DNA of 51,954 nucleotides from positions 1 to 51,954 of the forward strand of contig JACYMC010000090.1 in assembly GCA_015272195.1 (NCBI GenBank), in the 5' to 3' direction. Positions 2,876 to 34,253 of this stretch are shown in pieces. The translations under genes were made by a program, and so were the position numbers. Under the pieces are notes generated by a model. It was not told the DNA's origin. It ran no database searches and saw only the letters and a program-made list of their open reading frames with translations. Numbering within the stretch: the stretch's first letter is position 1; every line of letters starts with the position of its first letter. This DNA is from Candidatus Sericytochromatia bacterium. GTDB taxonomy: Bacteria; Cyanobacteriota; Sericytochromatia; UBA7694.

Positions 2876-3601
2876 ATGTCCGCCATAAGCACAGCCAATA
2901 TGAATTTTTATGACCCTTATGGGTCATATCAGCAACCCGGCTACCAGCAGCCTTATAACGGAGGCATGCAGACCTCACCCCATGGTGGGATTGTGCCCGA
3001 CACCTATACCGATACCAGTGGATTTTCCAAAATGAGCAGCATGATTTCAGCAGCCGGAAGCGGTGGTTTTGTGGCCTATAAACTTGGCGGACAGATGGCC
3101 AAAAATATCGGCAATATTTTTGGGGGCGGCAACAGCACACAGATCCAGGCCCAGCTGGCCAAAAGCTCCCAGGCGCTGTTAACCAAAGGCAGCAAGGGCC
3201 TGGTCAGCGAAATGCAAAAAACAACAGCTGCTGCAGCCAAAGACCTCAGCACCCAGGCAGGCAAAGGCGGCAGCATCATCGGTGGTGTGGGGAGTGTCCT
3301 GGCCACCGGTCTTAAAGGGGCGGGTCTGGGTGCCCTGGTTGGCGCCGGTTTGTCTGCTGTCAGCAACGGAATTGGCGTGGCCACAGGCCAGATCAGCAGC
3401 GGCCGCGCCATGGATAACGTGATTGGTGATACCATTGGCGGCGCTGTCGGTGGTCTGGGAGCGGTCACTGCCGCTGGTCTTGGCGGCATGCTGCTGGGCA
3501 AAATGGGTGTCAGCGGCTTGCCGCTGACCATTGCCACGGTCGCCCTGGGTGCTGTGGGCGGCATGGGCGGGATGTTCGCCAAGGATGCCCTGCTCGACTA
3601 A
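2876..3601 (+). CDS. Glycine-zipper protein with Tyr/Gln-rich N-terminus, unknown function
   Basis: A 241-aa protein I do not recognise. The first ~45 residues are low-complexity and rich in Tyr, Gln, Gly and Pro (YGSYQQPGYQQPY). There is no Sec signal peptide. The rest is Ala/Gly-rich and alternates amphipathic helices with long GxxxG/GxxG runs (GGAVGGLGAVTAAGLGG, GAVGGMGGMF), which look like glycine-zipper membrane hairpins. An AAGGAG ribosome site sits 9 bases before the ATG. The gene stands alone and ends in a strong terminator. The overall design (disordered head, membrane-active tail, no signal) fits a protein exported by a dedicated route or a cytoplasmic-membrane assembly factor; neither is shown. 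Compare the glycine-zipper protein at 36996-37550. Confidence 0.75.
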   Translation: MSAISTANMNFYDPYGSYQQPGYQQPYNGGMQTSPHGGIVPDTYTDTSGFSKMSSMISAAGSGGFVAYKLGGQMAKNIGNIFGGGNSTQIQAQLAKSSQALLTKGSKGLVSEMQKTTAAAAKDLSTQAGKGGSIIGGVGSVLATGLKGAGLGALVGAGLSAVSNGIGVATGQISSGRAMDNVIGDTIGGAVGGLGAVTAAGLGGMLLGKMGVSGLPLTIATVALGAVGGMGGMFAKDALLD

Positions 3602-19683: not shown

Positions 19684-21759
19684 ATGCGTATTTTGATGTC
19701 GATGTTTGGCTGGCAGGACTCTGGCGGTGGCACCATTATGCCCCGGCAAACGGCGCTGGATCTTCAGGCACGGGGTCATGAGGTGATGGTCATTTATGCG
19801 GCCGTACCTCAGCTGACCGGTGAGCCAGCCTATACGGTGCGTGAGCACGGCGAGGCCGGGGTGCAGCTGGTGGGTATCCATAACCGCCCGGCCCTCTTTT
19901 TGGATGCCCATGCCCCCCGGCGCGAGGCCCATGATCCTGAAGTCAAACGTATTTTTGAAAGCTATCTCGAAGCTTTTCAACCTGATGTGGTGCATTATCA
20001 TAACTTTTTAGGACTTTCCCTGGCCATTGCCGACCCGGCCTGGGAGCGTGGCCTGCCCAATTTTTATACGCCTTATAACTTTTGGCTGCTTTGCCCCACC
20101 CTTTATCTCAATTTGCCCGATCTTTCACTTTGCCGGGGGGTTAACGGCAGCGGCAGCAATTGCCTGCAGTGCACTCACGCCCCTTTGCCCGGCACAGAGT
20201 TTGTCTGGCGCCGCGATCAGCTGCGGCGTCTTTACAGTGAGCGGATTGGCGCTTGTCTGGCCACCTCACTCTGTGTGCGGGATCTGCTGCTCGAAAACGG
20301 CTATAGCAGTGAGCGGGTCGAACTCTTTCAGCTGGCCAATGGCCGGGCTGCCAAAATCTGGCAGGCGGTGGGTGCCCAGCGCGCGCCGGGTGTGCCCCAG
20401 CGCATTCAGATTGGCTTTATGGGCCAGGTTGTACCCATCAAAGGGGTGCACATGCTGGTGCAGGCCGCCCAGCACCTGCGCGGGGATTTTGAGGTGGTGA
20501 TTCACGGTGGCGGCCCTGACAATTATATGGACTACCTGAAACAGCTGGATGCCCGGCGCGTGGTGCGCTTTGCCGGCTACTTTGACGATGCTGACCACGC
20601 TGATTTGCTGGCCCAGATGCATCTGGCGGTGGTGCCCTCGGTCTGTTTTGACCACTCGCCCCTGGTGATCTCTGAATTTCTGGCGGCGCGCATTCCGGTG
20701 ATTGGGGCTGAGATTGGGGGGATTCCTGACTATATCCCTGAGGGCTGCGGTCAGTTGTACCCGGCCAATCAGCCTGAAGCCCTGGCCGCTGTGCTGCAGG
20801 CTCTGATCGATCAGCCAGAGCAGATAGAGGCCATGCAGGCCCGCATCAGCGAGCCACCGTCTTTTGCCGACTACGTCGCGGCGCTGGAAACCCGCTATGC
20901 GCAGGCCTTGACTGCACCCGACCCTGAGCGTCTGCGCCAGCGCGTGAATTATGTGCTGCAGCATCGCAGTGCCCGCTATTATACGGCCCACAGTTTGCAG
21001 GCGCTTGACGTACCCAATCCTGAATCCTCTGTGCCCGTGCTCTACGGTCTGGACCTGCTGTCTGAGGCGGATCTGGCAGCCACGCCTGCCGCGCATTTGC
21101 AGGCCGCTGCCTGGATAGTTTTTGCTGATCCTGCGTTGGCGCCTCTGCTGACTGAGGCTGCCCCTGATGTGCCCCGCCAGCAGATATTGCCCCTGCGGGC
21201 CACGCCGCCCGATGTGCATCTGCCCCTGCCTACAGAGCAGCCTTACAGCCTCCTGATTCTGTTGACGCCAGCAAATGATTGGCAGCCCGTGCTGGCAGCT
21301 TACTGGGACCAGACCCCAGCCGATACAGCCTGTGTGCTGGTCCCCTGGCAGCAAAGCCTTGAAACCGCCCAGGATGCCTTGCTGGACTGGCTCGACGCCA
21401 CGGGTCGGGACCCTGAGCAGGGGCCAGAGCTGGTGCTGGTGGAGGCTGAAAATGAAGATCAACTTAAAAGTCTTTTGCAGCAGGTTTATCTAACGGCTGT
21501 GCCGCCGTCATTATGTGCTGACGAGGCTTTGTTGCCTGTTCTGATGCTGGCGGCGCGTCTTTTGACGGCTGCCGAGCTGCCGGCAGCCTGGCAAGGTCAG
21601 CTGAGTACCCTCACCCTGTCTGATATTTTGCAGCCAATGCAGCGAGCTTTGCCGGGCTGGCTGGTACTGCATACTGAGCAGGATGTGCGTCTGCATCATG
21701 GTCAGATTCAGGCGCAGCGCTGGCTTGATTTATTGTTAGAGACGAGTAACCCGACCTGA
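19684..21759 (+). CDS. GT4-type glycosyltransferase with unknown C-terminal domain
   Basis: A 691-aa protein. Residues 1-410 are a GT-B glycosyltransferase of family GT4: N-terminal domain FGWQDSGGGTIMPRQTA, then the C-terminal nucleotide-sugar domain starting IGFMGQVVPIKGVHMLV, with HGGGPD and the acidic pair region FDHSPLVISEFLAARIPVIG. A cysteine-rich loop (LCPTLYLN...CRGVN...CLQCTHAP) around 135-165 is also seen in other GT4 enzymes with a zinc-like knot. Residues about 420-691 are Leu/Ala/Gln-rich and match nothing I know. It follows the second SDR after three bases, closing the first sugar block. Donor and acceptor are unknown. Confidence 0.85.
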   Translation: MRILMSMFGWQDSGGGTIMPRQTALDLQARGHEVMVIYAAVPQLTGEPAYTVREHGEAGVQLVGIHNRPALFLDAHAPRREAHDPEVKRIFESYLEAFQPDVVHYHNFLGLSLAIADPAWERGLPNFYTPYNFWLLCPTLYLNLPDLSLCRGVNGSGSNCLQCTHAPLPGTEFVWRRDQLRRLYSERIGACLATSLCVRDLLLENGYSSERVELFQLANGRAAKIWQAVGAQRAPGVPQRIQIGFMGQVVPIKGVHMLVQAAQHLRGDFEVVIHGGGPDNYMDYLKQLDARRVVRFAGYFDDADHADLLAQMHLAVVPSVCFDHSPLVISEFLAARIPVIGAEIGGIPDYIPEGCGQLYPANQPEALAAVLQALIDQPEQIEAMQARISEPPSFADYVAALETRYAQALTAPDPERLRQRVNYVLQHRSARYYTAHSLQALDVPNPESSVPVLYGLDLLSEADLAATPAAHLQAAAWIVFADPALAPLLTEAAPDVPRQQILPLRATPPDVHLPLPTEQPYSLLILLTPANDWQPVLAAYWDQTPADTACVLVPWQQSLETAQDALLDWLDATGRDPEQGPELVLVEAENEDQLKSLLQQVYLTAVPPSLCADEALLPVLMLAARLLTAAELPAAWQGQLSTLTLSDILQPMQRALPGWLVLHTEQDVRLHHGQIQAQRWLDLLLETSNPT

Positions 21760-21936: not shown

Positions 21937-22938
21937 ATGCAGATTGATAACGCATCCATTTTGATCACAGGTGGCACAGGCTCTTTTGGAAGCCATTTTG
22001 TCCGCCATATATTAACCCACCACAATCCACATAAAATCGTTATTTATTCGCGTGATGAGTATAAGCAGTATCAGATGCAGCATCAGTTGCGGGAGCAGGC
22101 CAGTAAACTGCGTTTTTTTATTGGTGATGTTCGTGATAAAGAAAGGCTTTATCGCGCTTTTGACGGGATTGATCTGGTCATCCATGCTGCCGCTTTAAAG
22201 CATGTGCCTCTGATGGAGTACAATCCCATTGAAGCTGTGAAAACCAATATTCAGGGTGCTGAAAATATTGTGGATGCAGCCATTGATCGCAACGTACAGA
22301 GGGTAATTGCGCTGTCAACGGATAAAGCTTGCAACCCTGTGAATCTTTATGGCGCCACAAAGCTAGTTTCAGATAAGTTATTTGTTGCGGCCAATGCCTA
22401 TACGGGCAATAAACGGACCCGTTTTTCTGTGGTCCGTTATGGTAATGTGGCCGGCAGCCGGGGATCTGTTATCCCTTATTTCAGGCAGTTGCTCCAGCAG
22501 GGGGTACAGGTCTTTCCGATTACTGACCTGCGTATGACCCGCTTTTGGATTTCTCTTGATGAAGCGGTGCGGCTTGTTTTAAAGGCTGTGGATGACAGCC
22601 GTGGCGGTGAGATCTATGTCAGCAAAATTCCCTCTTTTAAAGTCACGGATCTCGCAGAGGCCATGTTGCCGGGTGTTCAATTAAAAGAAGTGGGTATCCG
22701 GCCCGGAGAAAAACTCCACGAAGCCATGATCACCGAAACAGACAGTCTGAACGCCTACGAATATGAGCGGGAATATATTATCTATCCAAACCTGGATTGG
22801 TGGAGCGTCAAACGGGATTTGCAGACAGGTGGCAAAAAGGTGCCCGAAGGCTTTTTCTATACCTCCAATCAAAACAGCGATTGGTTATCTTCTGCCCAAC
22901 TGCAAAACCTGATTCAACAGATGCCGTTGATCGTCTAA
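21937..22938 (+). CDS. pseB: PseB-type UDP-GlcNAc 4,6-dehydratase (5-inverting)
   Basis: A 333-aa enzyme catalysing the first step of pseudaminic acid synthesis: UDP-GlcNAc to UDP-4-keto-6-deoxy-L-AltNAc. The Rossmann motif is ITGGTGSFGSHF. Family landmarks include YSRDEYKQYQM, GDVRDKERL, HAAALKHVPLMEYNPIEAV, and the active-site STDKACNPVNLYGATK with Asp/Lys and Tyr/Lys. The C-terminal half contains RPGEKLHEAMI. Length matches PseB (about 330). First gene of the dense pse operon; the next start is 6 bases downstream. Confidence 0.93.
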   Translation: MQIDNASILITGGTGSFGSHFVRHILTHHNPHKIVIYSRDEYKQYQMQHQLREQASKLRFFIGDVRDKERLYRAFDGIDLVIHAAALKHVPLMEYNPIEAVKTNIQGAENIVDAAIDRNVQRVIALSTDKACNPVNLYGATKLVSDKLFVAANAYTGNKRTRFSVVRYGNVAGSRGSVIPYFRQLLQQGVQVFPITDLRMTRFWISLDEAVRLVLKAVDDSRGGEIYVSKIPSFKVTDLAEAMLPGVQLKEVGIRPGEKLHEAMITETDSLNAYEYEREYIIYPNLDWWSVKRDLQTGGKKVPEGFFYTSNQNSDWLSSAQLQNLIQQMPLIV

Positions 22939-22944
22939 ACACTT

Positions 22945-24105
22945 ATGGAAGCGATACCTTATACGCGCCATCAGATTACCGCCGAAGACATCGAAGCTGT
23001 CTCCGATGTCTTGTTGCATGGCGCTTTGACCCAGGGATCTGCCGTTCCTGCTTTTGAAGCGGCTTTTGCTGACTATGTCGGTGCGCCCTTTGCGGTGGCT
23101 GTTGCCAACGGTACGGCTGCCTTACATCTGGCTGCTCTGGCCCTGGGCGTCAACAGCCATGCCAAGGTGATTACCACGCCGCTGACTTTTGTCGCTTCGG
23201 CGAATGCGGTGCTGTATTGTGGGGGAAGCCTGGCGTTTTGCGATAGTGATCCGGCGACCGGCTTAATGGATCTCGACAGTCTGGAGCACATGTTGAAGCA
23301 GGCGAAGCCCAATACATATGCTGGCGTTATTCCGGTGTCGTTGGCAGGATACCCCTTAAATCTGGAGCGTTTGCGCGCCCTTGCTGATGCCTATGATCTA
23401 TGGGTTTTGCATGACGCCTGTCATGCGCCCGGCGCCGCTTTTTTAGATTCCAAAGGCACCTGGCAGCGGGTGGGAAATGCTGCGTTTGAAGAAGCCTGTA
23501 CTTTTTCACTGCATCCGGCCAAACATATCGCTGCAGGCGAAGGGGGCGTCATTACAACCCGTTCGCAGACTCTGTATGAAAAGCTTTGCTTACTGCGTAC
23601 ACATGGCATTAGCAAACAGCCTACGACAACAAGGTCTGCACGGGGCAACTGGTACTATGAGATGCTGGCCCTGGGCTATAATTACCGCTTTCCCGATATT
23701 CTGGCTGCACTGGCTCATTCTCAGCTTAAGCGTGCCCCTGCAGGGCTTGAACGTCGCCGTGAGCTGGCCCAAAAATATCAGGAAGCCCTGGCCGACTTAC
23801 CGCTGTTGCTTCCACAGAGCAATCCACAATTAATAGCACATGCTTATCATCTCTATATTGTGCAGACCCCTTTGCGTGATGCTTTGTACAGCTATCTGCA
23901 TGCAGAGAATATTCTGGTGCAGGTGCATTATATTCCTGTCTATTGGCAGCCTTATTATCAGCAACTGGGTTTTGCGCCAGGACTGTGCCCACAGGCTGAA
24001 TCTTTTTATCAGAAGTGTTTAAGTTTGCCCCTATATCCGGACTTAAGTGATGCCCAGCAAAACCATGTGATTCAAAAAATAAGGCAGTTTTTTGATGGTA
24101 AGTAA
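22945..24105 (+). CDS. pseC: PseC-type UDP-sugar aminotransferase
   Basis: A 386-aa PLP enzyme of the DegT/DnrJ/EryC1 family that aminates the PseB product at C4 to give UDP-4-amino-4,6-dideoxy-L-AltNAc. It starts IPYTRHQITAEDIEAV with the PseC-typical substrate region. It has NGTAALHLA for PLP phosphate binding, HDACHAPG, and the PLP lysine in FSLHPAKHIAAGEGG. A C-terminal motif LVQVHYIPVYWQPYY is also typical. It overlaps the following start by 11 bases. Confidence 0.93.
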   Translation: MEAIPYTRHQITAEDIEAVSDVLLHGALTQGSAVPAFEAAFADYVGAPFAVAVANGTAALHLAALALGVNSHAKVITTPLTFVASANAVLYCGGSLAFCDSDPATGLMDLDSLEHMLKQAKPNTYAGVIPVSLAGYPLNLERLRALADAYDLWVLHDACHAPGAAFLDSKGTWQRVGNAAFEEACTFSLHPAKHIAAGEGGVITTRSQTLYEKLCLLRTHGISKQPTTTRSARGNWYYEMLALGYNYRFPDILAALAHSQLKRAPAGLERRRELAQKYQEALADLPLLLPQSNPQLIAHAYHLYIVQTPLRDALYSYLHAENILVQVHYIPVYWQPYYQQLGFAPGLCPQAESFYQKCLSLPLYPDLSDAQQNHVIQKIRQFFDGK

Positions 24106-24835
24106 GCGCACCAGGCAGGTTGGCATTGTGACGCAGGCTCGAATGGGTAGCACCCGGTTGCCTGGCAAGATTTTGCTTTCAGCTGCAAATAAGCCTCTGC
24201 TTGCTTACCATATTCAACGCCTTCTATGGTCAAACCTGCCAGTTTATGTGGCCACCACAGATCAGGAAGCTGAAACACCGATTCTTCAGTTTTGTACACA
24301 GTATTCGCTTCCTGTTTACAGAGGCGGCGAGCAGGATGTGCTGGCCAGGTTTTATGAAGCAGCTTGCTATTTTAAACTGGATGTCATTGTGCGCGTGACG
24401 TCTGATTGCCCTTTGATTGATGGACATCTGATTCAAGAAGGTCTGCAGATGTTCAGCGCCTCACCGGCAGAAAAAAAATATTTATCCAATTCTCTTGAGC
24501 GCACCTTTCCCAGAGGATTTGATTTTGAAATTTTTTCATTTGAATTGTTAAAAGAAGCCTATGAACACGCCAGTCATCAATATGAGCGTGAACATGTCAC
24601 ACCATATATGTATTTAAGAAACTTACCTGATGTGCAGCTGATTTCTTTTAAACAGGCTCAGGATCAAAGCCGCTATCGGATCACTTTAGACGTTCCCGAG
24701 GATTATGAGCTGATCAAACGGCTGATTGCAGAACATCATGCCGAAGATATGAACCATATCCAAATCACCGGTATTCTTGAGGCCAACCCGGACCTGTCTG
24801 ATATCAACAGTCATGTGGAACAAAAAAAGCTATGA
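24095..24835 (+). CDS. SpsF-like cytidylyltransferase domain protein
   Basis: A 246-aa protein; ATG 24095 is preferred to TTG 24092. It carries the CTP_transf_3 entry motif VTQARMGSTRLPGK, typical of SpsF-type proteins, and not the ARGGSKRIPRKN of PseF/NeuA. Other marks are VATTDQEAETPI, VYRGGEQDVLARFYEA and RVTSDCPLIDG. SpsF-like genes are frequent in nonulosonate operons, and their exact job is not settled. In this window it is the only candidate for a CMP-sugar activating enzyme. Overlaps the next gene by 4 bases (ATGA). Confidence 0.85.
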   Translation: MVSKRTRQVGIVTQARMGSTRLPGKILLSAANKPLLAYHIQRLLWSNLPVYVATTDQEAETPILQFCTQYSLPVYRGGEQDVLARFYEAACYFKLDVIVRVTSDCPLIDGHLIQEGLQMFSASPAEKKYLSNSLERTFPRGFDFEIFSFELLKEAYEHASHQYEREHVTPYMYLRNLPDVQLISFKQAQDQSRYRITLDVPEDYELIKRLIAEHHAEDMNHIQITGILEANPDLSDINSHVEQKKL

Positions 24836-25725
24836 AGATCAACAGCAAAGAAGTGATACAAAACAGGCTGGGCTACTTTGAGCTGGCGCAGAAGCCCAGC
24901 GAAGGTGAGCTGCAGCAATATTATGCTGAAAAGTATTATCAATACGAGCATAGCAATTATGCTAAAACCTACCCGGAGGACGAGTTAAAGTATTTTCGGG
25001 CAAAAATAGCCCAAAAATATCTGGCTTTAAAATCGCTAAGTGGCTCTGAATCAGGATCTCTTCTTGATGTTGGGTGTGGCGAAGGTTTTACACTGGCGTT
25101 TTTTAAAGAGATGGGCTGGCAGGTGACCGGGGTGGATTATAGTCGTTTTGGTTGTCAGCAGATGAATCCGCATTGTTTGGACGATCTGTTGGCAGGAGAT
25201 ATTTATCTGATTCTGCATCAGCTGATAGAACAGCATAAGACCTATGATCTTCTCTGGATCAGCAATGTATTAGAACATGTGCTGGATCCTCTGGCCTTGC
25301 TTCGGACACTTCAAAAGCTTGTATCTCCCGCAGGTTATCTGATTGTGCAGGTCCCGAATGATTTTTCGTTTTTTCAGAATTATTTACTGCAGGCAAAGAT
25401 TATTTCTGAACCCTTTTGGGTGGCTGTTCCTGATCATATTTCTTATTTTACGAGAACATCTCTGAAACGCCTTTGTCTGGAAGCCGGCTGGTCTGAACAG
25501 TTGGTGCTGGCTGACTTTCCCATTGATCTGTTTTTATTAAACGAGCACTCCAACTATCATCACGCGCCTGAAAAAGGCAAGGCGGCACATCTGGCAAGAG
25601 TCAAACTGGAGAACCTGTTTCATGCCCATTCGCCTGAGCGCACCAATCGCTTTTACCAGGCCATGGCTGAACTGGATTTTGGTCGCCAAATCACGGGATT
25701 CTACACATTAAAGCCATTAAATTAA
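24832..25725 (+). CDS. Class I SAM-dependent methyltransferase
   Basis: A 297-aa methyltransferase of the Methyltransf_23 type. The N-terminal 75 residues include LGYFELAQKPSEGELQQYY, like the 'C-terminal-part-only' sugar methyltransferases. The SAM motif SLLDVGCGEGFTL is at about 77-90. VDYS and WISNVLEHVLDPLALL follow, and then VSPAGYLIVQVPND. It is probably a sugar O- or N-methyltransferase acting on the nonulosonate or its precursor. A 4-base overlap with the upstream gene implies coupling. Low GC relative to the first 17 kb. Confidence 0.82.
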   Translation: MKINSKEVIQNRLGYFELAQKPSEGELQQYYAEKYYQYEHSNYAKTYPEDELKYFRAKIAQKYLALKSLSGSESGSLLDVGCGEGFTLAFFKEMGWQVTGVDYSRFGCQQMNPHCLDDLLAGDIYLILHQLIEQHKTYDLLWISNVLEHVLDPLALLRTLQKLVSPAGYLIVQVPNDFSFFQNYLLQAKIISEPFWVAVPDHISYFTRTSLKRLCLEAGWSEQLVLADFPIDLFLLNEHSNYHHAPEKGKAAHLARVKLENLFHAHSPERTNRFYQAMAELDFGRQITGFYTLKPLN

Positions 25726-25735
25726 AAAGGATATA

Positions 25736-26506
25736 TTGAGGGCCTGGTTGATGAACAATGATTACAATGTCCTTTCTAATGCACATGAAAAAGAACAATT
25801 GATGCGGGAGGGCTTTGTGCAATTGTTTAAAGCCTGTCCGATTCCTGAAAATGAACTGATGATGAATTTGGGCTTGTTTTTGAACAGACAGGCCCTGTCG
25901 CGCATTTTATTTATGCATGAGCTCTATCAAAAGATCATATCTGTTCATGGGGTGGTGATGGAGTTTGGCGTTCGCTGGGGGCAAAATATGGCCCTTTTTC
26001 AGTCTTTTCGCGGCATGTATGAGCCCTATAACTATAACAGAAAAATTATTGGATTTGATACATTTACAGGTTTTCCTGAAATTGACGCTAAAGATGGGAG
26101 GGCTTCGGCACTGACAACTGGCGCTTATTCTGTGTCTGAAAACTATGAGATTTATCTTGAGAAAATTCTGACCTATCACGAAAATGAAAGCCCTGTTTCA
26201 CATTTGCGCAAATTTTCTCTGGTGAAAGGCGATGCTGTGGTTTCAATCGATCAGTATCTTGAAAAACACCCCGAAACCCTGATTGCCCTGGCTTATTTTG
26301 ATTTTGATCTGTATTTGCCGACCAAAAAATGTCTGCAGGCCATCAAAGGACATCTGACCAAAGGCAGTGTGCTGGCGTTTGATGAGTTGAACTATGAGAA
26401 ATTTCCAGGCGAAACACTGGCTCTTAAAGAGGTTTTTGGTTTGGATCGCTATAAAATAACCAGATCTCCGCTGAATCCCTTGTGTTCTTATCTTGTGATT
26501 GATTAA
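25736..26506 (+). CDS. TylF/macrocin-type methyltransferase-like protein
   Basis: A 256-aa protein. The TTG at 25736 has an AAAAAGG 5 bases before it, which supports it over ATG 25751. The core VVMEFGVRWGQNMALF is a SAM-site-like motif, followed by IGFDTFTGFP and a metal-site-like ALAYFDFDLYLPTKKCL. These are features of the TylF/MycF sugar O-methyltransferase group. Proteins of this kind are found in pseudaminic acid clusters and have sometimes been mislabelled as CoA-transferases. It probably methylates a hydroxyl of the sugar. Ten bases separate it from the gene before. Confidence 0.72.
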   Translation: MRAWLMNNDYNVLSNAHEKEQLMREGFVQLFKACPIPENELMMNLGLFLNRQALSRILFMHELYQKIISVHGVVMEFGVRWGQNMALFQSFRGMYEPYNYNRKIIGFDTFTGFPEIDAKDGRASALTTGAYSVSENYEIYLEKILTYHENESPVSHLRKFSLVKGDAVVSIDQYLEKHPETLIALAYFDFDLYLPTKKCLQAIKGHLTKGSVLAFDELNYEKFPGETLALKEVFGLDRYKITRSPLNPLCSYLVID

Positions 26507-26517
26507 GGAGATTGGGG

Positions 26518-28101
26518 TTGATACAAAAATACCATTGCCTGCCTCAGTCTGTTTACACCTGGCAAGACTATAGCATTCAAGCCATTCAGGCAGATCAAAT
26601 CGAAGCCATTCGTGTGTGGCGAAATGCGCAGATTGAAATTTTACGCCAATCACAGCCCTTGTCTGCTGAAGATCAGGAAACCTACTTTAAGACCGTTATC
26701 TGGCCATCTCTGTCTGAGCGTCAGCCCAGACAGGTTATTTTTTCACTTTTTCATCGCCAGCAGTTTATAGGTTATGGCGGGCTGGTGCATATTGCCTGGC
26801 ATGACTTTCATGCTGAGGTCTCTTTTCTTTTGGATCCCCAGATCATGCAGGACCCAACGCAATATCAGAATGCCTTTCAGGGTTTTCTTGAACTGATGAA
26901 ACATATTGCGTTTGATGAACTGGGCCTGAATCGTCTCTCGACAGAAATATATGGTTTTAGAAAGCAGCATATTGCGCTGGTCGAGCAGAATGGTTTTGTT
27001 TTAGAAGGCGTCTTAAAAGAAAGGGTCTTTTTTAAAGGCGTATTTTGGGATGCCGTGATTCACAGCTTTTTAAAGGCTGCTTATACGCAGGGGCAGCAAC
27101 CGTCTTTGCCAGAACCATCAAGGATCCCGCTGAACCGCTTTCCAGGCAATATTCTGATTACCAGTGCCGCCAGAAAAATCCCCCTGATTTTTGCAGTGGC
27201 TGATGCCGCCAGAAGATTTCATCCACGGGTCAAAGTATATGCCGGTGATATAAATGAACACGCGATTGCACAATACTATGCCGACGTTTTTTGGCCCATG
27301 CCTATATTGGCGGATAACCAGGCAGAAAGCCTTAAAGATCATTGTCTGCAGCACAATATCAGATTGATTATTCCCACACGCGATGGAGAACTGCTTTTTT
27401 GGGCCAGGCACCGTGCGTTGTTTCAGCAAGCCGGCATTTTTATTCTGGGGTCTGATGAAGAAGCCTTAAAACGTTGTCTGGACAAACTTGTATTTTCTTC
27501 TTATTGCAGGGAGCAGGGTATTCCTGCGATTACAGCAGCGCTGGAGCCTGAAAAGATTCCTGCGCCATTATATGTGGTTAAAGAGCGCCAGGGAGCGGGT
27601 TCGCACAATATAGGAATAGCTCTTGCGCTGGACTGTGCCAAAAAGCATGCCAGACAACTAAAGGATCCTGTTTTTCAGCCTTATATTGAGGGGCAGGAAA
27701 TCAGTATTGACGGTTATGCCACGCAAACGGGGGAGATGAAAGGCATTGTTTTGCGAACCCGGGATCAGGTTTTAAATGGTGAATCTCAGGTGACGACTTA
27801 TTTCCGTGATGCTCAGATCGAAGAAAATGCTGCGATATATGCAAGGAAGCTGGGGCTGAAAGGCCATTTTGTGATGCAGGCCATTCTGGATTCTCAGAAT
27901 ATCTTGCATGTGATTGAGTGTAATTGTCGTTTTGGTGGGGCTTCCACCCTTTCGCTCGCGGCCGGACTGGATACATTTTTCTGGGGGCTGTTGGAAGCAC
28001 ACGGTATGTGCCTTGACTCACGGCCTTTTATCAGAAAAAACCTAGCAATAAAACAAATAAGAATTCCTCAAGATATATTAATATATGGTTCTTGTTTTTG
28101 A
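26518..28101 (+). CDS. GNAT acetyltransferase fused to an ATP-grasp ligase
   Basis: A 527-aa two-domain protein. I choose TTG 26518, 7 bases after AAGGAG; the track start at 26512 would be too close. Residues about 8-190 are a GNAT fold (VWRNAQ..., IGYGGLVHI, the C-terminal FRKQHIALVEQNGFVLEGVLKER), as in PseH N4-acetyltransferases. Residues about 205-525 are an ATP-grasp domain: ILITSAARKIPLI, IPTRDGELL, VVKERQGAGSHNIG for ATP, PYIEGQEISIDG, and the metal motif HVIECNCRFGGAS. The first half would acetylate the 4-amine made by PseC. The second would ligate an acid to an amine or similar nucleophile using ATP. The fused combination suggests two different N-acyl groups. The end overlaps the HAD gene by 17 bases. 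Confidence 0.82.
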   Translation: MIQKYHCLPQSVYTWQDYSIQAIQADQIEAIRVWRNAQIEILRQSQPLSAEDQETYFKTVIWPSLSERQPRQVIFSLFHRQQFIGYGGLVHIAWHDFHAEVSFLLDPQIMQDPTQYQNAFQGFLELMKHIAFDELGLNRLSTEIYGFRKQHIALVEQNGFVLEGVLKERVFFKGVFWDAVIHSFLKAAYTQGQQPSLPEPSRIPLNRFPGNILITSAARKIPLIFAVADAARRFHPRVKVYAGDINEHAIAQYYADVFWPMPILADNQAESLKDHCLQHNIRLIIPTRDGELLFWARHRALFQQAGIFILGSDEEALKRCLDKLVFSSYCREQGIPAITAALEPEKIPAPLYVVKERQGAGSHNIGIALALDCAKKHARQLKDPVFQPYIEGQEISIDGYATQTGEMKGIVLRTRDQVLNGESQVTTYFRDAQIEENAAIYARKLGLKGHFVMQAILDSQNILHVIECNCRFGGASTLSLAAGLDTFFWGLLEAHGMCLDSRPFIRKNLAIKQIRIPQDILIYGSCF

Positions 28102-28762
28102 TCTTGATGATACTTTGTATGATGAATTGACATACGTGGAGAGTGGTTTTGATGCGGTGGCCAAGATGCTGGCTGAAGCCTTTGAGATCTCTGCACACCA
28201 TTTAAAAGAACGCATGATGCAGATTTTAAAACAACAGGGCAGAGGTGCTGTGTTTGACCTTTTGCTGCAAGAAATCGGTGCTTATACTAAAAACAATGTG
28301 CACAAAGCACTGTCCTGTTACCGGACGCATCAGCCCAGCATTGCCATGTCAGCAGATGTGCGCCTGATGCTTCTGGAACTCTCACGCTCTTTTCCGCTCT
28401 ATCTGGTGACGGACGGCAATAAAGAGGTGCAGTACAACAAAATTAAAGCCCTGAAGATCGCTCCTTTGTTTAAGAAAGTCTATATTACGCACCGCTATGG
28501 TCTGAAACATGCCAAGCCGTCTCTTTATTGTTTTGAAAAAATTCGTCAGAAGGAAAAATGTTCTTTTGCTGATATGACTTATATTGGGGATAATCCTCAC
28601 AAGGATTTTGTCAATCTCAAAAAACAGGGCGCAAAAACCATCCGGGTCATGACCGGGTCATATCGCCAGATTGAATTAACGCCAGATTTTGAAGCAGACC
28701 AAAGGATAGATTCTGTGCTGGAACTGAAACATTTAATCAACGTGAACGGGAGCTTAAGTTAA
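28085..28762 (+). CDS. HAD-superfamily hydrolase
   Basis: A 225-aa phosphatase-like protein. Motif I VFDLDDTLYDE has both catalytic Asp residues, motif II is YLVTDGN, motif III Lys lies in GLKHAKPS, and motif IV is YIGDNPHKD. A helical cap domain occupies about 20-90. It overlaps the ATP-grasp gene, and the two are likely functionally linked, for example by dephosphorylating an intermediate. Its substrate is not known. There is no evident ribosome site, consistent with coupling. Confidence 0.85.
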   Translation: MVLVFDLDDTLYDELTYVESGFDAVAKMLAEAFEISAHHLKERMMQILKQQGRGAVFDLLLQEIGAYTKNNVHKALSCYRTHQPSIAMSADVRLMLLELSRSFPLYLVTDGNKEVQYNKIKALKIAPLFKKVYITHRYGLKHAKPSLYCFEKIRQKEKCSFADMTYIGDNPHKDFVNLKKQGAKTIRVMTGSYRQIELTPDFEADQRIDSVLELKHLINVNGSLS

Positions 28763-28763
28763 A

Positions 28764-29387
28764 GTGAAATCGTCAAGCATGACAGAGCAGGAGGCCTTCT
28801 GGGCCGGAGATTTTGGTCACGCCTACATTCAGCGCAATCAGGCAGCGCTTTATTTACCGGCTAATCTGGCGTTTTTTTCGCGTGTTTTATCCAAAACACA
28901 TGCCGTGAATGATGTGCTGGAGTTGGGGGCAAATATTGGCGCCAATTTGATGGCGATTAAACAACTTCGGCCTGACATCCAGCTTTCTGCTGTTGAGATC
29001 AATCAGCAGGCCTACACACAACTGATGCAATTGCAGATTGATGCCAGACATCAATCAATTTTGAGCTTTAAACCAGAAAAAAAATGGGACCTGGTGCTCA
29101 TTAAGGGGGTTTTAATCCATATATCTCCAGACAATCTGGCTGAAGTTTATGATGTGATGTATCAGTCTTCAGAACGGTATATATGCATTGCTGAGTATTA
29201 TAGTCCAACACCTGTGGAAGTACCCTACCGGGGGCACCGCAATAAATTATTCAAGCGTGATTTTGCCGGCGAAATGATGGATAAATACCCTGACTTAAGA
29301 CTTGTCGACTATGGTTTTTATTATCACCGGGATCCTGTCTTTCCGATGGACGATATGAATTGGTTTCTGCTGGAAAAACGCGATTAA
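28764..29387 (+). CDS. Pseudaminic acid biosynthesis-associated methylase
   Basis: A 207-aa SAM methyltransferase matching the Pse-associated methylase family (TIGR03587 type). It opens with TEQEAFWAGDFGHAYIQRN, has SAM motif DVLELGANIGANL, then VEINQQAY, LIKGVLIHISPDNL, and the conserved AEYYSPTPVEVPYRGH. It ends with GFYYHRDPVFPMDDMNWFLL. The start is GTG 28764 (GGGAG upstream) or ATG 28779. This is the third methyltransferase of the operon and lies one base after the HAD gene. The methylated position is unknown. Confidence 0.88.
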   Translation: MKSSSMTEQEAFWAGDFGHAYIQRNQAALYLPANLAFFSRVLSKTHAVNDVLELGANIGANLMAIKQLRPDIQLSAVEINQQAYTQLMQLQIDARHQSILSFKPEKKWDLVLIKGVLIHISPDNLAEVYDVMYQSSERYICIAEYYSPTPVEVPYRGHRNKLFKRDFAGEMMDKYPDLRLVDYGFYYHRDPVFPMDDMNWFLLEKRD

Positions 29388-29405: not shown

Positions 29406-30455
29406 TTATAAATTTAAATCAAGGTCTTCTGCATGCAGGGGCTGTCCCATTTTGAGGGTTTTATTTGCTTTCTGACCGAGGATCTTCTGATAGTAACGTG
29501 GTTCCAAACCGTCTGCTGGCCGGATAATCTTTGTGTTAAATTCCGTCAGGGTTTCGCCCTTTTGAATGTCGGCCGCGACATAAATGGAGCGTTTGAAAAT
29601 CAGGTTCTTTTTTTCTGAGTCGCTCAGTTCGTAACTGATTCGACCTAATCCTGTCCAGGCCCGTTTGGCTTCAGTGACCAGGGTCTGCATTTCTTCCGGC
29701 TCCATAGAGAAAGCGGCATCAACGCCACCATCGGAGCGGCTCAGCGTAAAATGCTTTTCAATGACACAGGCACCCAGCGCTACGGCAGCAATGGCCACGC
29801 CAATACCTGTTGTGTGATCAGATAAGCCAACCTCAACGCCAAAGCGTGAACGCATGTCTGGCAACGTTAACAAATTGCTGTGCAGGGGATCGGCCGGATA
29901 GTTGCTGGTGCACTTTAAAAGAATCAGTTCTTTACATCCGGCCTTTCTTAAAACGTCAACAGCGGTCTGAATATCTTCAAGGGAAGCCACACCTGTTGAT
30001 AAAATAACCGGCTTGCCTGTTTGTGCTACTTTTATTAAGAGCGGATGGTGCGTGTTTTCGAATGAGGCTATTTTATAGGCGGGTACATTTAAGCTTTCCA
30101 GAAAGTCTACAGCGGACTCGTCAAAAGGTGAGCTAAAGGCAATTAATCCCCTTTTTTGGGCGTGTGCAAAAATCTCTGCGTGCCATTCCCAGGGCGTATA
30201 GGCTTCCTGATAGAGTTGATAAAGGTCTTTCCCACGCCATAGAGACTCAGGATCCTGAATAGTATATACAGCGTCCATTGTGATGGTATCTGCTGTATAG
30301 GTCTGGAGTTTAATCGCGTCCACGCCAGCATGGGCTGCTGCATCTACAATGTCTAAAGCCCTTTGTAACGACTGGTTATGATTCCCAGACATTTCCGCAA
30401 TAATAAAAGGCTGTTTGCTTTGGCCTATCAAGCGTCCGGCTATTTTTACTTCCAT
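29406..30455 (-). CDS. pseI: PseI-type pseudaminic acid synthase
   Basis: A 349-aa enzyme condensing a 2,4-diamino-hexose with phosphoenolpyruvate to give a nonulosonic acid. I start at ATG 30455 instead of the track's 30527; the protein then begins MEVKIAGR, and an AGGA lies upstream. NeuB-family motifs are FIIAEMSGNHNQSL, AIKLQTYTADT, FSSPFDESAVD, ILSTGVAS, LKCTSNYPA and GLSDHT, then VIEKHFT and a C-terminal SAF domain (RSIYVAADIQKGE). The WRGKDLYQLYQEAYTPWEWH segment favours PseI over NeuB/LegI. It is the only gene of the pathway on the minus strand, converging on the operon end and divergent from the radical SAM gene. Confidence 0.93.
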   Translation of the reverse strand: MEVKIAGRLIGQSKQPFIIAEMSGNHNQSLQRALDIVDAAAHAGVDAIKLQTYTADTITMDAVYTIQDPESLWRGKDLYQLYQEAYTPWEWHAEIFAHAQKRGLIAFSSPFDESAVDFLESLNVPAYKIASFENTHHPLLIKVAQTGKPVILSTGVASLEDIQTAVDVLRKAGCKELILLKCTSNYPADPLHSNLLTLPDMRSRFGVEVGLSDHTTGIGVAIAAVALGACVIEKHFTLSRSDGGVDAAFSMEPEEMQTLVTEAKRAWTGLGRISYELSDSEKKNLIFKRSIYVAADIQKGETLTEFNTKIIRPADGLEPRYYQKILGQKANKTLKMGQPLHAEDLDLNL

Positions 30456-30621
30456 AATGCATCTATTCCTTTTGGACTTCCGGCAATTCTTAAATTTGTT
30501 ATTAAGAGCATTTTCTGGAAAAGTCATTCAGGCTAACCAGTCTTTGCAGCCCAGGCTGAACTATGGGAAAATGCCTTTAAATACTCTGAAGTCTAATTTT
30601 CAGTATTTGAATGAGGTAGTC
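30456..30621. promoter_or_regulatory. Divergent promoter region between pseI and the radical SAM gene
   Basis: A 166-bp AT-rich spacer separating two divergent genes. It presumably holds both promoters, but I cannot fix clear -35/-10 pairs. GAGG at 30613-30616 is the ribosome site of the plus-strand gene. Confidence 0.35.
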
Positions 30622-32172
30622 ATGAACGCTAAGCCTAAAGAAGCCTGTAGTCTGCTTTTTGTCAATCCCTGTTTGAGAAAAAACTCGTTCTCAAAGCTTT
30701 TACCCATTGGCCTTGGCTATGTCATGACCTACTTTAAGACCCGCGGTTACTCCTTTGACTTACTGGATGTTGACCTTAACGAGTATTCCGATGAATACAT
30801 TGAAGACTATCTTCGCCAGCATCCCTATGATTTTGTGATGCTGGGTTCTATTGTAACCCATTATAAATGGGTCAAATGGTTTGTGAACACCGTCAAAAAG
30901 CACCAACCTCAAGCCAAAGTCATTGTGGGGAACTCGGTGGCGGGCTCCATTCCTGAAGTGTTTCTGAAACATACGCAGGCTGATGTGGTGGTCATCGGTG
31001 AAGGTGAAATCTCGGCTTATGAAACCGTAGAAGCTTTGCGCCAGCAGCAGAGTCTGGACGATGTTGCCGGTATTGCTTTTCGTCACCCGGTCAGTCACGA
31101 GATGATCAAAACGCCGGTGCGCGCAACGGGACCGGTAGATGACTTTGAGATGGTCAACTGGGATTTCTTTGATGTCGAGCGATACATCAGCTCGGCTTCG
31201 TTATCGCATGGGTTTGATACTCAGAATCCCCAGGCTGTTCGTGTGATGCCAGTGAGTACTGCCAGAGGCTGCGTGTTCAAATGTACATTCTGCCATTATG
31301 TTTTCTGGAACGATCCTTACAGACACCGCTCAGCTGAAAGCATTCTGGCAGAAGTCAGACGCAATATTGAAAAATACCAGGCCAATTATATTAACTTTTG
31401 GGACGATCTCAGCTTTGCTTCTGCCAAGCAGGCAGAGCGCCTGGCTGACCAGATTCTGGCATCGGGTCTGAAATTTTCGTGGAGTGCAGCGATTCGGGTG
31501 GATTTCTTCAGCCGCAATAAGCTGCCGCGTGAACGCTGTATTGAGATTGCTCACAAAATGAAAGCCGCTGGATGTAAGGCCCTGGGCTTTTCACTGGAGT
31601 CCGGTAATAAAGAAATTCTCGAAATGATGAACAAGCGCATTGACGTTTCGGCTTTTTTAGATACGGTTGAAATTCTCAGAGAAGTCGATATTGTCTGCAA
31701 TACCAGTGTGGTGTTTGGTTACCCAATTGAAACTCGCGAATCGATTCGGGAAACCTTTGCACAGTGTTTGCGAGCCAAAGTTTACCCCAGCATTGGCTTT
31801 TTGCTGCCCCTGCCGGGAACAGGAATGTATGACTATGCCAAAGAACACGGTTTTATTACAGATGAAGACGCTTATCTGGATTCTATTACCGAACGCCAGG
31901 ATATTTGTCTGAATATGACTCAGCTGTCAGATGAAGATATTATGCAGGAAATCAAACGGGGTGCCGAGCAGCTGAATGAATTATTGCAGCTGGGCCTGGA
32001 TGAGGAGCGCTATATCAGAACCGGTCGTTACCAGAATGACAAGGGTGTGCACGACAAGCGCGAAGGCCCTCTGGATCCTGACAATATCCAACGCAATGAG
32101 AACGACTTTAGCTTTAATTACAGCCAGACGGTATTTCAGGTGGATGGTGGTAAAGCGGACGCCGTCTGTTAA
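30622..32172 (+). CDS. B12-binding radical SAM protein
   Basis: A 516-aa enzyme. ATG 30622 (GAGG 5 bases upstream) is preferred; the track start adds 69 residues from the intergenic region and across pseI. Residues about 10-150 look like a cobalamin-binding domain (LPIGLGYVMTYFKTRG, VMLGSIVTHY, VVVIGEGE). The radical SAM cluster ligands are in TARGCVFKCTFCHY (CxxxCxxC), followed by INFWDDLSF, and the barrel runs to about 400. Such enzymes do radical methylations or rearrangements at unreactive carbons. Its place between PseI and glycosyltransferases points to C-methylation or a related change of a glycan, which is inference. It shares a base with the next start (TAATG). Confidence 0.87.
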   Translation: MNAKPKEACSLLFVNPCLRKNSFSKLLPIGLGYVMTYFKTRGYSFDLLDVDLNEYSDEYIEDYLRQHPYDFVMLGSIVTHYKWVKWFVNTVKKHQPQAKVIVGNSVAGSIPEVFLKHTQADVVVIGEGEISAYETVEALRQQQSLDDVAGIAFRHPVSHEMIKTPVRATGPVDDFEMVNWDFFDVERYISSASLSHGFDTQNPQAVRVMPVSTARGCVFKCTFCHYVFWNDPYRHRSAESILAEVRRNIEKYQANYINFWDDLSFASAKQAERLADQILASGLKFSWSAAIRVDFFSRNKLPRERCIEIAHKMKAAGCKALGFSLESGNKEILEMMNKRIDVSAFLDTVEILREVDIVCNTSVVFGYPIETRESIRETFAQCLRAKVYPSIGFLLPLPGTGMYDYAKEHGFITDEDAYLDSITERQDICLNMTQLSDEDIMQEIKRGAEQLNELLQLGLDEERYIRTGRYQNDKGVHDKREGPLDPDNIQRNENDFSFNYSQTVFQVDGGKADAVC

Positions 32173-34253
32173 TGCTGCACGTTCAAAATCTGGTCTTTCT
32201 CTCTGACTCTGTGATGTATGAGCATCTCAGGCAGGTCCAGCCCGGCTTATTTGAGCAGGACAACGCCTATTTGCTGTTGGATATCGACGTGGCGGCCCTG
32301 CTGCCGGCTGATGCCCGCTATTTTTATCTGCAGGATCTGACCTGTCATGAGAACCAGCACCTGCCATTTTTATTGGACTTCAGAGATTGGCTCAATGGGC
32401 TTTACCCTGAACTGAAAGCACTTACACACCGCGGTGTCAGCATCTGGGAGTCTGTCAGTGCGTCATTTTTTTATCCTTACCGCGCCATTATTCTGGCGAT
32501 TCAGGGTTTAAAACAACTGTCTGAGCGCTTAACCTGGGCGCATTTTTATCTCACCGCGCCGCTGAAACACCCCGTTTATCTGGATACGGGCGGGCTGTTT
32601 GAATCAGACGGAATTCAGGCCGCCATGGCGTTTTGGGCCTTGCAGCAGGACATACGGGTTCACTGGCTCAATCCGCCGGATAAAACAGATGATTCCAACC
32701 ACTATATTCGCCATATTGTCTCAGAAACCAATCTGGGGCAGACCGCACTGGTGCCTTTAACTCCCCCCGAAAGCCTGAACAGGCTGGTGGCCCAGCCCCC
32801 TAAAAAATGCGTTATTTTGATTGGCAACTCCAGTGACTGTCATGATATTCCATTGCTGACAGATTATCTGAAGCAGAGCCCGGATTATTTTTTTATCTAT
32901 CTTTCGACACAGCATTTTTTTCGCTATGAAGAAGGTCCGGGATACCTTGCGCTGGATTTTAGATATCTTTATGCCTGGCCCTGGTTTACACAGGCGCAGT
33001 ATGACCAGATATCAGAAAGCGTGCGCCGGGCCCTGCAAAATCCAAACCCTGTTGATAAAGCAAGCTACGACTATCTTTTGAATAATCCCTTTTTGGCTTT
33101 TCAGCAAGACTGGCTGTATAACAGCTGCCTGGAAATCTATAAGGTGATTGAAGTGGCGCATTATTTACAGCAAACGCTTGCGCCTGCTGTGTGTATGTTT
33201 GGTTACGGGCATATTACCAAGACCGTGGCGGCTTTTATTAACACGATGCGCAGCGGGGGAACGCGTCTGATGCATGTGGTGCATGGGGGTTATATGGCCA
33301 AAGATACCTTTGCTGATTTACCCCCTGCTGACTATGCCCTCGTGCGTGGCCAGCAATTTGCCGCCCAGCTTTCCAAAGACAAAGTGAGCCGGGACTGTTT
33401 TGTGGTCGGCGATCTGCGCAAAGAAAGTGCCGTGCTGGAACAGAAACGCCCTAAGCATTCTCCGGCCCAGGGTAAACAGCCGCCCAAAATTATGTATCTG
33501 ACCAATCGCTTGTTGCTGGGCACAGGGGTTGGCAAAGTGGCTGATTTTTCTTTGTTGAAGCATTATGAGACCTTACAGGGCATTTTTGCGCTCGCTGAGC
33601 GTCGCAAGGATCTTCAGTTCATCTGGAAGCCGCATCCCCGGCATGACTATGTGCATTATTATGCCCGCCAGGATCATACCGTTATTCCTTTTTATGGCAG
33701 GGAACAATCTCTGGCTGAATTGCTGGAAGATGTCTCTGTCTGTGTTCTGCTGAATAACTTCTCCGCCTCGATGATTGAAGCCGCCGTTTCTGAAACTCCG
33801 ATTATTCAGCTGCGGACGGCTTTTACAGACAGTCTCAGCTTGAATACAGCCTATCTGGCTCCGGATATTCATGTGGTTCACAGTCTGGAAGCCCTGGAGC
33901 AGCAGATTGACTTGATTTTATCTGATGGGTCTGCACGTGAACGCAACGTGTGCTCTGTGATTCAGACCAAAGAAAAGTGGTGTGAAGCGGTGGGTACTCA
34001 GGCCCTGGACAACACATTAAAAGCCTTTTCGCAGATCGACTGGTCTCTGCCTGAGGTCACCCTGCCTTCTGCTGAGATACAGTCAGGTTTAGGGCATATT
34101 GTGCAGCTCATGGCCTGGCGTGCGGCATATGCCAGAACCAGAGACCGGCAGCAGTATCAGCGTCAGCGCCAGACCCTGCTGGAGGCCTTTACAGCGCCTG
34201 AAGATCGGCAGCTTGTGGCGCGTTATATTCAGGACAGCGAAAAATGGATATGA
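32172..34253 (+). CDS. Large GT-B-like surface glycan protein, unknown specificity
   Basis: A 693-aa protein, starting in TAATG with the previous gene. The region about 330-600 has GT-B character: FGYGHITKTVAAFINT, VVHGGYMAKDTFAD, then FIWKPHPRHDYVHYY and LLNNFSASMIEAAVSETPIIQL. These resemble the donor-binding halves of CDP-glycerol transferase or capsule-synthesis (KpsS/KpsC-like) enzymes. Residues 1-320 are not recognised. There is no signal peptide or membrane helix. Likely a cytosolic glycosyltransferase that adds the modified sugar; donor unknown. Overlaps the next gene by 10 bases. Confidence 0.6.
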   Translation: MLHVQNLVFLSDSVMYEHLRQVQPGLFEQDNAYLLLDIDVAALLPADARYFYLQDLTCHENQHLPFLLDFRDWLNGLYPELKALTHRGVSIWESVSASFFYPYRAIILAIQGLKQLSERLTWAHFYLTAPLKHPVYLDTGGLFESDGIQAAMAFWALQQDIRVHWLNPPDKTDDSNHYIRHIVSETNLGQTALVPLTPPESLNRLVAQPPKKCVILIGNSSDCHDIPLLTDYLKQSPDYFFIYLSTQHFFRYEEGPGYLALDFRYLYAWPWFTQAQYDQISESVRRALQNPNPVDKASYDYLLNNPFLAFQQDWLYNSCLEIYKVIEVAHYLQQTLAPAVCMFGYGHITKTVAAFINTMRSGGTRLMHVVHGGYMAKDTFADLPPADYALVRGQQFAAQLSKDKVSRDCFVVGDLRKESAVLEQKRPKHSPAQGKQPPKIMYLTNRLLLGTGVGKVADFSLLKHYETLQGIFALAERRKDLQFIWKPHPRHDYVHYYARQDHTVIPFYGREQSLAELLEDVSVCVLLNNFSASMIEAAVSETPIIQLRTAFTDSLSLNTAYLAPDIHVVHSLEALEQQIDLILSDGSARERNVCSVIQTKEKWCEAVGTQALDNTLKAFSQIDWSLPEVTLPSAEIQSGLGHIVQLMAWRAAYARTRDRQQYQRQRQTLLEAFTAPEDRQLVARYIQDSEKWI

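Follow-up and report, generated by a model that had tools for sequence, protein, structure and literature searches.

Why should an operon for pseudaminic acid (Pse) encode an ATP-grasp ligase fused to a GNAT domain, with the gene of a HAD phosphatase overlapping its end? The operon lies in a window of 51,954 nucleotides, the whole stretch of DNA analysed here, which is one complete contig of a 4.17-Mb metagenome-assembled genome (MAG) with a completeness of 91%. This MAG lacks the psbA/psbD-type genes present in the photosynthetic members of its phylum, from which we infer that the host is probably a non-photosynthetic member of Cyanobacteriota, perhaps of the class Sericytochromatia. The features on which the argument draws are given below.

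21937..22938, + strand: pseB, UDP-GlcNAc 4,6-dehydratase (inverting); TIGR03589, 523.6 bits, cut-off 407.75
22945..24105, + strand: pseC, 4-aminotransferase; TIGR03588, 421.7 bits, 1.8 below the cut-off of 423.5
24092..24835, + strand: SpsF/KdsB-like CMP-sugar synthetase; 36% identity with the synthetase part of the ATP-grasp fusion in locus L007
24832..25725, + strand: class I methyltransferase (Methyltransf_23); Pfam
25736..26506, + strand: TylF/CalS11-like sugar O-methyltransferase; match to CalS11 (solved structure), 215.5 bits, 8.9e-63
26507..26510, + strand: GGAG, Shine-Dalgarno-like motif; read from the sequence, 7 nt before TTG 26518
26518..28101, + strand: GNAT::ATP-grasp fusion; open reading frame and Pfam, same fusion in locus L033
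26575..27054, + strand: GNAT domain (Acetyltransf_4, PF13420); residues 22-181 of the 529-residue frame, 2.4e-13
27151..27444, + strand: PylC-like_N (PF21360); residues 214-311, 1.9e-11
27454..28047, + strand: ATP-grasp domain; Pfam, 28-homologue alignment, nearest solved structure 2pn1
28085..28762, + strand: HAD phosphatase, 225 aa; HAD_2 (PF13419), 7.1e-15
28764..29387, + strand: Pse-associated methylase (Pse_Me-ase); TIGR03587, 277.1 bits, cut-off 112
29406..30527, - strand: pseI, pseudaminic acid synthase; TIGR03586, 493.9 bits, cut-off 340.25

Eight genes form a run on one strand (21937-29387) with intergenic gaps of -17 to +10 nt, in the order pseB, pseC, CMP-sugar synthetase, methyltransferase, CalS11-like methyltransferase, fusion, HAD and Pse-associated methylase; pseI is convergent to this run. 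The matches to PseB, PseC and PseI together identify a Pse locus and, with the match to Pse_Me-ase, bear out the operon setting assigned in the original prediction. The SpsF/KdsB-like gene, which scores 19.9 bits against the PseF profile (cut-off 205.7) and thus falls outside that family, is by its sequence the likely CMP-nonulosonate synthetase, and the CalS11-like methyltransferase is 61% identical to a counterpart adjoining the ATP-grasp/HAD genes of L007. For the UDP-sugar hydrolase PseG, matches in the 91%-complete MAG reach at most 24 bits, and of the two best one resembles MurG and the other a glycosyltransferase-like ORF. A match of the SpsG kind was not found either; the gene may be missing from the assembly or may have been replaced.

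Further genes surround the operon. Adjoining pseI, a B12-binding radical SAM protein (30415-32172, likely start near 30616) shares in its first part 50% identity over 119 residues with positions 3121-3498 of locus L057, which lie just downstream of a pseI and a GNAT gene; this may make it a radical enzyme linked to nonulosonates. Positions 32172-34253, between the radical SAM gene and a glycosyltransferase gene, encode 693 residues that match nothing in Pfam at E ≤ 1. The operon is flanked by very large glycosyltransferase proteins with long extra regions, at 19684-21759 (691 aa) and 34244-36988 (914 aa).

The GNAT and ATP-grasp domains do reside in one polypeptide, as had been predicted. A single open frame extends from TTG 26512 to the stop at 28101 (529 aa), in which TTG 26518, spaced from the GGAG motif as listed above, is the better start (527 aa) and coincides with the start position of the original prediction. 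Besides its GNAT and PylC-like domains, this frame matches ATPgrasp_Ter (PF15632, residues 386-512, 8.5e-13) and ATP-grasp_3 (PF02655, 5e-8), and the Pfam gathering scores are exceeded for PF21360 (44.4 against 27), PF15632 (48.7 against 29.1) and PF02655 (33.6 against 23.2). An equal fusion in L033 is 44% identical over 523 residues; this second occurrence, together with three further fusions of the ATP-grasp domain, rules out a frameshift or assembly artefact. The structural model of the whole fusion is poor (pLDDT 59, built on four sequences), and a Foldseek search with it returned generic ATP-grasp folds, among them PylC and amino-acid ligases.

Is the ligase intact? Loss of catalytic residues had been named beforehand as an observation that would speak against it. 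The alignment of 28 ATP-grasp homologues retains them, including the two Lys, the acidic, the Asn and the Arg residues of the nucleotide and metal sites, with K325, K357, E396, E469, N471 and R473 among the invariant residues, and a degenerate ATP-grasp domain is thereby ruled out. We propose, on sequence grounds, that the domain actively joins carboxylates to amines at the expense of ATP. Its best profile is NCBIfam NF009405 (PRK12767), at 147.7 bits against a cut-off of 390, a score that places it outside this equivalog. PRK12767, termed 'carbamoyl phosphate synthase-like', and PDB 2pn1, the best solved structure, which is annotated only as carbamoylphosphate synthase large subunit, have the same domain order as the window protein (PylC-like N-terminal domain, then ATP-grasp). 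The window sequence nevertheless groups separately from PRK12767, in a single clade (99/100 support) with four close relatives by ATP-grasp profile, namely L006 (a Pelosinus MAG), L007 (Bdellovibrionales), L032 and L033; the branch of this clade is long (2.78). L032 and L033 are 'Bacillota-type' in that their genomes were drawn as belonging to the phylum of Pelosinus, and the phylum labels of L032-L051 are generally those of the search's centre genome; the loci are drafts, some of them short, and E-values are per genome. The close ATP-grasp type was detected in no other genome of the window's phylum (386 genomes), and no relatives were found in phage and viral collections.

The company kept by this domain is consistent. 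Mining for the same fusion beside pse genes, which the original prediction had suggested, led to L033, where the fusion is followed by HAD, pseI and pseC. In L006 the GNAT has a gene of its own just upstream, and the fusion partner of the ATP-grasp domain is an SDR; in L007 that partner is a CMP-sugar synthetase, and in L005, a more distant relative from the window's phylum, it is PglD, with a DegT aminotransferase alongside. GNAT, SDR, CMP-sugar synthetase and PglD represent four kinds of aminosugar or nonulosonate enzyme.

ATP-grasp proteins are already known in nonulosonate and 4-aminosugar modification, which makes the step less new than had been implied. According to two studies, Neisseria PglB2 is an ATP-grasp::phosphoglycosyltransferase tied to the swap of a C4 N-acetyl for a glyceramido group (GATDH) (PMC11130364, PMC6959607). 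Compared by description, PglB2 and the window protein share an ATP-grasp fused to an aminosugar-pathway enzyme, but the partner in the window is a GNAT rather than a phosphoglycosyltransferase, the pathway is that of Pse, and the window system is known from its genes alone. Transfer of the PglB2 substrate is uncertain because of the long branch on which the window clade sits. In Shewanella, SfmE (SO_3265) is an ATP-grasp protein encoded with a methyltransferase in a flagellin nonulosonate modification operon, and its deletion reduced spreading and shifted the flagellin mass (PMC3765264); unlike the window protein, SfmE is of the ATP-grasp_4 type, has 412 residues and has no GNAT partner in its published description, and none of the five sfm genes encodes a HAD. 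Clostridioides difficile CDR20291_0245, an ATP-grasp protein (Pfam 13535), is required for the peptidylamido-sugar on flagellin (PMC5207246), in contrast to the window in a different pathway, the synthesis of an unusual sulfonated moiety. A link between ATP-grasp and bacillosamine was not found in the literature searched, and the searchable literature held no description of a GNAT fusion in Pse operons, of the four-partner fusions or of the near-constant phosphatase. For members of the clade itself, the search turned up neither an enzyme assay nor a substrate or product.

We were curious to know how tightly the phosphatase is bound to the ligase. The predicted overlap is real: the HAD gene starts within the last codons of the fusion gene, with 17 nt shared. 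Its motifs are intact (DxDDT and TDG; D6, D8, T109, K144, D169/D174), and the catalytic residues are conserved in 22 HAD sequences. Across the 28 loci with the broad ATP-grasp type, 22 have a HAD gene downstream of the ligase gene in the same orientation, and in 20 of these the gap measures between -50 and +124 nt; an adjacent HAD is absent in six (L005, L032, L040, L043, L045 and L046), some of which are short stretches or contig ends. A PseI/NeuB-type synthase is matched in 16 loci. Six others encode a phosphoglycosyltransferase without a PseI match, and five of the six keep the HAD. On a Phocaeicola plasmid (L052), a phosphoglycosyltransferase, ATP-grasp, HAD, aminotransferase and dehydratase are encoded together, and on a Priestia plasmid (L031) an aminotransferase, sugar transferase, ATP-grasp and HAD; because no acetyltransferase is seen in either run, the ATP-grasp/HAD pair seems to replace a PglD-like acetyltransferase. 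Distant relatives in the window's phylum (L061, L062, L070 and L085) lie beside a calcineurin-like phosphoesterase (metallophosphoesterase) and no HAD, and the distant relative in L058 lies beside a different HAD_2. This pattern of genes suggests that phosphate removal itself is the step needed, with unrelated phosphatases swapping in. Separately, L044 (224-2582) combines a HAD matching that of L006 at 297 bits with an ATP-grasp match of 76 bits and about 730 bp between them; the ATP-grasp gene there has perhaps been replaced or has decayed.

Taken together, the fusion and the phosphatase probably equip a nitrogen of Pse with an uncommon acyl group, the acid being perhaps glycerate. ATP-grasp ligases form an acyl phosphate for transfer to an amine, and one free amine arises in the Pse pathway, the 4-amine installed by PseC. 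In the scheme that we favour, the ATP-grasp domain would acylate this free 4-amine of UDP-4-amino-4,6-dideoxy-AltNAc, the future N7 of Pse, with a phosphorylated acid, for which 3-phosphoglycerate is the most plausible candidate and O-phosphoserine the second; the N-acyl group would then lose its phosphate to the HAD encoded by the overlapping gene. Fusion of the GNAT domain would reflect that it handles the same aminosugar, either docking the acceptor or acylating a second nitrogen, and the CalS11-like and Pse-associated methyltransferases may cap acyl hydroxyls to yield an O-methylated N-glyceroyl-type Pse. For the scheme in full, comprising an active ligase, transfer of a phospho-acid to the PseC-installed 4-amine, dephosphorylation by the HAD and a GNAT that serves the same sugar, we estimate a probability of about 0.5. 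The domains, the intact catalytic residues, the fusions, the order of the genes and the pairing with a phosphatase are observed; the acceptor amine, the phosphorylated donor, the identity of the acid and the site of methylation are the parts that we infer.

Several observations point this way. A HAD accompanies the ligase in different sugar pathways, so the simplest substrate for it is what the ligase produces, with the phosphate carried by the acid; the earlier suggestion that the HAD handles a phosphorylated intermediate fits a phosphatase partner that is nearly always adjacent. Likewise, the ligation of an acid to a sugar amine, as first suggested, gains from the intact residues and from the association, across several phyla, with genes for aminosugars and nonulosonates. 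As donor acid, 3-phosphoglycerate is our favoured guess because it is abundant and yields an N-glyceroyl group after dephosphorylation, and because N-glyceroyl occurs on Pse and on the Neisseria sugar. On Pse, it is found in the Pse5Am7Gra of Tannerella forsythia (PMC6120980), and Campylobacter bears Pse with a di-O-methylglyceroyl group (PMC6321876); the two to three methyltransferases of the window operon would suit an O-methylated glyceroyl group. Against the scheme weigh the six loci without an adjacent HAD and the lack of a PseG match in the MAG; moreover, the remaining enzymes of the operon and the window do not name the acid, and a GNAT acetylating the 4-amine as PseH does would leave the ligase no obvious free amine.

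The donor need not carry a phosphate. The ligase might instead add an unphosphorylated acid or amino acid (Glu, Ala, Gly or Ser) whose amino group the GNAT then acetylates, with the HAD serving in housekeeping or proofreading. The Leg of C. botulinum bears N-methyl-glutamate (PMC2674064, PMC13317340), the ATP-grasp relative in L043 adjoins a PLP-dependent enzyme, and fusion of the ATP-grasp to two unrelated N-acetyltransferase folds, GNAT and PglD, fits acetylation after aminoacylation. Against this, the Phocaeicola and Priestia runs carry ATP-grasp and HAD with no acetyltransferase seen, and a housekeeping HAD would be neither so strictly paired with the ligase nor swapped for other phosphatases; we consider such an unphosphorylated donor doubtful, if the strongest of the alternatives. 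The donor acid does probably vary among relatives, given the PLP enzyme in L043 and the PLP (Orn/DAP-type) decarboxylase that is the partner in L065. L065 belongs to a set of large-genome loci in the window's phylum (with L066, L077, L060 and L078) in which the ATP-grasp gene has a DegT aminotransferase or sugar transferase on one side and a partner of 413-447 residues on the other. ORFs similar to the L065 decarboxylase occur in L066 and L077; the partner in L060 has a weak AMP-binding match and a look-alike ORF in L078. These partners may be other acid suppliers.

What, then, does the GNAT domain do? It had been called a PseH-like acetyltransferase, and a distant resemblance stands: PseH (TIGR03585; PDB 4RI1) and the window GNAT share the fold, the Pse operon setting and distant sequence similarity. 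Membership does not, since the window GNAT scores 26.3 bits against the curated cut-off of 93.1. The loop from the 'EVSFLL' strand to the next helix is also longer than in PseH and free of glycine, and the GNAT domains of the window, L006 and L033 all lack a glycine in the CoA loop and a recognisable (Q/R)xxGx(G/A) motif. Inactivity of the GNAT is not claimable from this, because a GNAT beside pseI in L057 likewise lacks the Gly-rich CoA loop. Among 399 Bacillota-type genomes, the GNAT subfamily was matched in only two with the close ATP-grasp type, plus one weak match. The domain may serve to bind the acceptor or to acylate a different nitrogen, or it may acetylate after all. Were it a true PseH making ordinary Pse5Ac7Ac, the ATP-grasp half would be left to act on something else, for instance a lipid or a peptide linker. 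This is the sole PseH-like domain of the operon, and no stand-alone PseH above the cut-off was found in the window MAG; the low score and the unrecognisable CoA loop argue otherwise, as does the finding that all fusion partners found for the ATP-grasp are aminosugar or nonulosonate enzymes. We regard such a bifunctional PseH as unlikely. Least probable is a HAD that neighbours the ATP-grasp by chance and acts as an NANP-like nonulosonate-9-phosphate phosphatase: human and mouse NANP (4knv, 2gfh) are the nearest folds to the HAD model (pLDDT 86), but Pse is a 9-deoxy sugar whose standard pathway has no 9-phosphate, and retention of the HAD in five of the six phosphoglycosyltransferase loci without a PseI match argues that it acts on the ligase step. 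The same loci disfavour the HAD as a substitute for PseG.

Returning to phospho-acid ligation followed by dephosphorylation, the ATP-grasp/phosphatase pair recurs in at least five phyla, counting genomes whose phylum is named and genomes for which it is deduced. A broader proposal, which we advance tentatively and with the odds leaning against it, is that ATP-grasp and phosphatase constitute a widespread cassette that would build N-glyceroyl-type groups from 3-phosphoglycerate directly on nucleotide aminosugars, free of CoA and carrier protein; a dedicated Pse clade, with its repeated pathway fusions, would fill a gap in the pathway, for instance the glyceroylation of C7, and the GNAT would be an acceptor-binding module and no acetyltransferase. 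Chemists would gain a CoA-free N-acylation of nucleotide aminosugars. Non-acetyl N-acyl groups on nonulosonic acids (glyceroyl, di-O-methylglyceroyl and methylglutamyl) shape bacterial surfaces, and some of them have no assigned gene. The ATP-grasp/HAD pair is a candidate for a decoration step for which, according to one published study, no gene is known, and the sequence of events that it implies, phospho-acid ligation and then dephosphorylation, is concrete enough to be tested.
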